From the NCBI RefSeq assembly GCF_900660575.1, contig NZ_LR215008.1, positions 1 through 64,000 of the forward strand: 64,000 nt of DNA, written 5' to 3'. Shown here in pieces: positions 46,008-47,234 of this stretch (position 1 is its first letter; each line of letters opens with the position of its first letter). A program made the translations under genes and the position numbers. Origin of the DNA: Mycoplasmopsis pulmonis. GTDB taxonomy: Bacteria > Bacillota_I > Bacilli_A > Mycoplasmatales > Metamycoplasmataceae. A model generated the notes under the pieces. That model had not been told where the DNA came from, made no database searches, and saw nothing but the letters and a program-made list of their open reading frames with translations.

Positions 46008-47234
46008 TTAAATATTCAATATTTCATCTATATATTTTTGCCTTAACTCTAAAAATTTTTTTCTTTCAGGAGACAAATATTCTTTAGGAATTGTTGAAAA
46101 ATACTCTCTTAAATTCTCATATTTTTTGAAGAAATTTTCAATGTTATTTTCATCTAATTCATCAATTATTATTTTTTTAATTTTTCCTGAATTAGCACTA
46201 TATGTAAAAGATAATTTATCAAAAAGAAAATGCATTGTTTTGTGTAAAAATAAAAAGTTGTATTTATCACTAATAAAACCTAAAAATTTTTGATATTCAT
46301 CACTTTCAAAAACACTATCATGATATTTATGTTTAAAAGAAGAACTAAAGACTATTTCCATTAATTTTTTCTTAGAATAACTCACTGGTAAAATATGAGC
46401 TTTTTCTAAATCAGGAGTATATTTTCAACTAAAAGTATTTTCATTATTTGTTCTAAATTTTCTTCTTTGTTTGTGAATATCTTGATCAATTTTTTGAAAT
46501 GAATGAAAAGTTTTTTTCATTTGTAATTCAATATTTTTTTCAATAATTTTAAATTCATCAACTGTTAAATTTTGGTTAAAATCAAAAAATATTTTTTTGG
46601 TTATTTCACTTACACTTTCAAGATAATCATCTTTTAAATTTTCACTTTCATAAATCATATTTGCTTGCTTTTTATTTACATTTGTATTCTTATTTTTGAA
46701 TAGCTTAAAAAATGTAACAAAATTATATTTTTTATTTTTATATACTAAAAGCATTTGACCTGATTTGTGATTTTGAATTTCCCCTGAAGGATTGTTTCCT
46801 CTAATTAAAGCTATTATTGACTTTAGTGTTTCTAAATTTAAATTTTGAGTTTTATAATTGATAAAGTTATTGAATATTTTTAGATTATTTTCTGATAATT
46901 CAACAACTTTATTTCTAAGACCTTTTTCAGGTCTTATTTCTTGTTTAAAAAGAGGCTCTAATTTTTCAAATAATGCCTTTCTTCGCAAGTAATTTTTGTT
47001 CTTATTTTCAAATCATGATTTAGTTGTGTAAATATCAATACTTAAGCTTTTAAATTCAATTATGTAATCATAAATTATTCCATTTTTATCATGTATAAAT
47101 TTTATTTGTCCCAAAAATTTTGATCTATTGTCTTCTAGATCAAAATTGCTTGATACAAACTCAAAAGATGATCATCTATAACCATATTCCAAAAGCTCTA
47201 ATTTACTATTATTTTTTAATTTTTTATTAAGCAT
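46008..47234 (-). CDS. Probable type II restriction endonuclease, HNH class
   Basis: The intact 408-residue minus-strand frame contains an HNH nuclease pattern: His280 (KAHILPVS), Asn326 (KYNFLFL) and His335 (MHFLFDK), with the typical eight residues between Asn and the last His. The N-terminal two thirds are charged and probably bind DNA. TGA is Trp several times. The ATG at 47234 lies 19 bases inside the 3' end of the cytosine methyltransferase gene, the standard tight restriction-modification pair. Recognition sequence cannot be read. Because the methyltransferase is out of frame, coupled translation would also limit this enzyme. Confidence 0.75.

Follow-up and report, generated by a model that had tools for sequence, protein, structure and literature searches.

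How can a cell carry an intact restriction endonuclease gene when the methyltransferase beside it is out of frame and should leave the chromosome unprotected? The question is raised by two adjacent genes in the window, the whole stretch of 64,000 nucleotides of Mycoplasmopsis pulmonis DNA analysed here: M, a CpG-type cytosine methyltransferase split at a dinucleotide repeat, and R, an HNH endonuclease (Table 1). The original prediction was that translation of R may depend on ribosomes that finish M, so that one repeat would switch both enzymes safely together. Comparison with relatives supports an OFF state that silences R as well, with translational coupling as the most likely cause. We give a probability of about one in two to the whole of this reading, in which the operon consists of M and R, and the two act as a phase-variable restriction-modification pair whose OFF state also silences R by translational coupling.

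Under the proposed mechanism, slippage of the (CA)n tract, which we infer for this M. pulmonis strain, would shift M into and out of frame. When M is ON, ribosomes completing it would open the start of R at the overlap between the genes and R would be made, while CpG methylation would protect the chromosome from an R that presumably cuts unmethylated CG-containing sites. When M is OFF, ribosomes would halt just past the tract, still some 820 nt short of R; R would not, or hardly, be made, and the unmethylated cell would survive.

Results

All open frames were read with TGA as tryptophan, following the mycoplasma code. As predicted, R is whole (an open frame of 408 aa) and M is OFF, its N- and C-terminal parts lying in different frames that meet at the (CA)11.5 tract. 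The family model NF045952, "MAG4270 family putative restriction endonuclease," which takes its name from MAG4270 of M. agalactiae, spans all of R (model positions 2-365 of 366) with 207.7 bits against a cut-off of 53, placing R in that family. The match to HNH_2 (PF13391) is barely above its cut-off (21.1 against 21), and H280, N326, H335, and D339 of R are unvarying across 44 relatives. Structure comparison of the AlphaFold2 model gave the HNH domains of VcaM4I (Z 10.1) and TagI (Z 6.0) as the nearest solved ones; the PF13391 match, the conserved His-Asn-His residues, and the likeness to VcaM4I together identify R as an HNH endonuclease. VcaM4I and TagI carry EVE or SRA modified-base readers, whereas the N-terminal domain of R, compared alone, matched neither and had no convincing match in the PDB. 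Full-length R gave no significant match in Foldseek searches of the PDB and viral libraries, nor any match in a PDB sequence search or in PADLOC. No new fold is claimed for the N-terminal domain.

By sequence, M belongs to the CpG C5 methyltransferases typified by its homologues M.SssI and M.MpeI, having a PF00145 domain, the catalytic Pro-Cys, and a CpG-type recognition loop. This loop, GPTLTASGANSRIK, shares 14 of 14 residues with that of M.MpeI (4dkj), the best PDB match of the C part. A single assembly records a single state, and a mixed population or an error in tract length may lie behind the OFF reading.

Table 1. Features of the M-R locus (positions in the window)
Feature	Position	Strand	Evidence
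R, HNH endonuclease, 408 aa, intact	46008..47234	-	NF045952 2.7e-61; AlphaFold2 pLDDT 87
R HNH domain with H280, N326, H335	46203..46412	-	PF13391; VcaM4I Z 10.1, TagI Z 6.0
R N-terminal domain (residues 12-224), presumed target recognition	46563..47201	-	modelled alone, pLDDT 89
19-nt overlap, M end with R start	47216..47234	-	junction -22 to +5 nt in 52/53 relatives
M C-terminal part, other frame, open from 48100	47216..48055	-	PF00145 (DNA_methylase) 1e-47, 163.6 bits; TIGR00675
M target-recognition loop GPTLTASGANSRIK, identical to M.MpeI (CpG)	47432..47473	-	alignment to 4dkj
M catalytic Pro-Cys (motif IV, FPCQD)	47984..47989	-	unvarying in 32 aligned relatives
M N-terminal part (SAM-binding motif FAGIGS), stop directly after tract	48054..48428	-	NF045953 8e-50, 168 bits; open frame
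(CA)11.5 dinucleotide tract, presumed slippage switch	48057..48079	-	TRF, 100% matches
TATAAT, presumed -10 box of M-R transcript	48441..48446	-	12 nt 5' of M start codon

To place the pair among its relatives, we searched 135 genomes from the bacterial family with NF045953 and NF045952 and read out the loci; the counts that follow are based on 53 loci at which both M and R are complete enough to judge. A repeat lies in the first third of M at 40 of the 53 loci and in R at none. Its unit is mostly AG, with CT in the M. ovipneumoniae-like group, poly(G) in the agalactiae/bovis group and others, C in two loci, and CA in the window, and it occupies codons 24-27, 51-61, or 110-125, always ahead of the catalytic motif. 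With at least five repeat units at three positions, the tract must have arisen repeatedly, and since the layout recurs with various tracts in tens of genomes, its occurrence in the window is more than chance. M is OFF at 36 of the 40 tract-bearing loci and ON at four, so that these homologues fall into the simple-sequence-repeat phase-variable class; four in frame is fewer than the third expected if all states are equal (P=6e-4), and OFF therefore seems favoured in sequenced cultures. Among loci without a tract, 11 of 13 are in frame. M is ON without a tract in M. hyorhinis and with one in M. leonicaptivi and M. enhydrae, and OFF in M. bovis 8790 and M. agalactiae 14628. R is intact behind 35 of 38 OFF copies of M and at all 15 ON loci. 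The confinement of tracts to M and the intact R of OFF loci both speak for the predicted single repeat switching both enzymes.

The ATG of R (47232-47234) does lie inside the 3' end of M, as had been claimed, the stop codon of the C part being at 47216-47218. The linkage is conserved, the junction staying within the narrow range given in Table 1 at all but one locus; similarly tight junctions are found at 16 of 46 ordinary codirectional pairs in the window. The tight junction is present also at loci without a tract and thus did not evolve for the switch alone. A TANAAT box occurs within 60 nt upstream of M at 43 of 49 loci and of R at 2 of 50, a rate for R that falls below the 17.5% found at random points inside M, which served as the control. 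A TATAAT within M in the window (47741-47746) could be an internal promoter driving R, although such matches are no commoner than chance.

The R start, embedded in the 3' end of M, has a Shine-Dalgarno motif of at least 5 bases at 25 of 50 loci, where chance would give about 2, and these motifs would allow free initiation. The starts of R are, however, costly to open: 8.7 kcal/mol versus 6.4 for other tight-junction genes once near-identical loci were dropped (p=3e-4), and 9.9 versus 6.6 kcal/mol when Shine-Dalgarno starts alone are compared (p=0.015). This fits the pattern expected if the start needs a ribosome finishing M. Thus the dependence of R on completion of M gains support from the junctions, the scarcity of -10 boxes before R, and the paired Shine-Dalgarno starts across relatives, but not from the window's own R start, which has ordinary structure (6.5 kcal/mol, z 0.68) and a weak Shine-Dalgarno motif. 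Rho-dependent polarity was also considered as a silencer of R and was dropped as an unlikely cause, because a profile search of the M. pulmonis genome for the Rho family gave no match near the cut-off, the weak ones resembling ATPase paralogues.

A second methyltransferase of the same specificity, which had been named among the observations that would refute the prediction, was not found by sequence. Searches of the M. pulmonis genome (962,791 bases) returned one other C5 methyltransferase, at 172.57-173.88 kb (L103, 1181-2483), OFF and split at an (AG)n tract; it was set aside as a backup since its recognition loop, TLTTRQDRHPNSG, is unlike the CpG type and it is itself OFF. No nuclease gene lies within 1.5 kb downstream of it, and a second C5 methyltransferase in the same layout was seen in another genome (G026). 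A third PF00145 match (L104) proved to be a PrmC/HemK-like protein rather than a DNA methyltransferase, and the genome yielded no further methyltransferase bearing a CpG-type loop. CpG observed/expected ratios, which come from few stretches, are 0.24-0.29 in the window and two others (L190, L191) versus 0.54-0.73 in three congeners without the pair, a depletion that fits past methylation or restriction at CpG. The values of 0.24-0.29 are the lowest among eleven genomes sampled, with no obvious excess of TpG.

Elsewhere in the window, the second of two ABC transporter genes (44368-45983, plus strand) lies in two frames near 45087-45144, beside a short A run, and may be a pseudogene, a switch, or the product of an assembly indel. 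Four tandem paralogues encoding alpha/beta hydrolases occupy 39217-42500 (plus strand), and a run of 19 T at 19539-19557 is a possible length-variable tract.

Discussion

Mycoplasma CpG methyltransferases are already known to vary in phase through frameshifts (PMC9465063), which are cited also for those of M. pulmonis and M. crocodyli. The nearest precedent is MAG4250/MAG4260 of M. agalactiae, active in strain 13377, which belongs to the same C5 CpG family, carries its tract in the same place, and is mostly OFF; in strain PG2, M is split into MAG4250 and MAG4260, and the next gene is MAG4270 (PMC2824730, PMC9465063). Its tract is poly(G) where that of the window is (CA)n, and it was published as an orphan with unrelated flanks (PMC9465063), whereas here the downstream nuclease emerges as a conserved partner. 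What the present comparison adds is this partner, the restriction of tracts to M, the finding in different species that R stays intact behind an OFF M, and properties of the R start that are consistent with coupling. In a 2025 review, the phase-variable systems are of Type I or III, and translational coupling is mentioned no further than as something that might link a regulator to its nuclease (PMC12707154). A comparable layout is that of PvuII, which shares with M-R an overlap of about 20 nt at the start of the nuclease gene and putative hairpins, although its upstream gene encodes a regulator rather than a methyltransferase. Translation of PvuII R proved independent of C despite overlap and hairpins (PMC2997769), and these features therefore need not mean coupling.

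In Type III mod/res systems and phasevarions, too, a single repeat within the methyltransferase gene suffices for switching off, and the nuclease gene is left undamaged. Res depends on Mod for its action in those systems, which makes the OFF state harmless; a Type II nuclease would work on its own, and another safeguard would be needed. R might nevertheless be made in OFF cells and cut only together with the M protein, as in Type I and III systems, whose nucleases rely on the methyltransferase subunit for recognition; this would explain an intact R without coupling and would suit the constant adjacency of the two genes. We consider this unlikely, since Type II enzymes normally act alone; moreover, R owns a large conserved N-terminal domain, and M, a monomer of the M.MpeI type, is complete and possesses a recognition loop itself.

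Alternatively, R may depend on modification and cut DNA methylated at CpG, in the manner of a Type IV nuclease, OFF being the compatible state. Both of its nearest structural neighbours, VcaM4I and TagI, depend on 5mC or 5hmC (PMC7897488). Yet R is intact at every one of the loci at which M is in frame, including that of M. hyorhinis with no tract, where expression from the same operon would kill the cells, and this alternative is accordingly improbable.

R could also be a leftover, decaying slowly or unexpressed beside an M that is a phase-variable orphan, as the M. agalactiae CpG gene was described (PMC9465063). R does evolve fast in one clade: across seven M. ovipneumoniae-like genomes, all OFF and chosen without a further member that has a broken R (G020), omega is 1.1 for R and 0.17 for M. 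However, none of the approximately 291 substitutions in these R genes created a stop codon, where neutral change should have produced 17 (P=4e-8), other close pairs give omega values of 0.09-0.46 for R, and the catalytic residues are unvarying in 44 proteins, which makes decay a poor explanation. The preservation of an open R in genomes sequenced in the OFF state implies that cells do pass through the ON state and that it is of consequence. In the seven sequences, the omega of about 1.1 is spread evenly along the protein; diversifying selection on R in this clade is possible.

It is very improbable that a split M works as two subunits and leaves OFF cells methylated after all, for although NCBIfam calls NF045953 an "N-terminal subunit" and the C frame has upstream start codons, M is fused in frame at four tract-bearing loci, and bisulphite sequencing of M. 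agalactiae found CpG methylation in the in-frame strain only (PMC9465063). M. agalactiae strains with the gene OFF live without CpG methylation (PMC9465063). In M. hominis, only CpG-methylated plasmid yielded transformants (PMC6753208), which fits CpG-sensitive restriction, although other systems could be the cause. The main texts of Tn-seq studies of M. hyorhinis and M. bovis contain nothing usable on M or R.

Where we depart from the original prediction is in its word "safely," which is too strong for switching by coupled translation. On turning OFF, leftover R could outlive methylation, and on turning ON, both enzymes would appear together on an unmethylated chromosome.

More tentatively, the pair may represent a Type II system that is widespread among mycoplasmas, with both enzymes switched from one repeat in M by translational coupling and with the target of R free to vary. 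A CpG methyltransferase guards every CG-containing site, and the nuclease would thus be free to change a longer target. Such freedom would explain why identity to the window's proteins among relatives is 16-34% for R and 48-59% for M, as well as the high omega of R in one clade. The R alignment was too diverse for a pattern scan, and the M alignment served instead.

If coupled switching of M and R is correct, it would account for the survival of cells that carry an intact nuclease gene but lack methylation, and would present a Type II system in which gene overlap makes switching safe. It would also bear on transformation, as ON cells should restrict unmethylated plasmids. More broadly, the supposed orphan CpG methyltransferases of mycoplasmas would then be halves of switchable defence systems.
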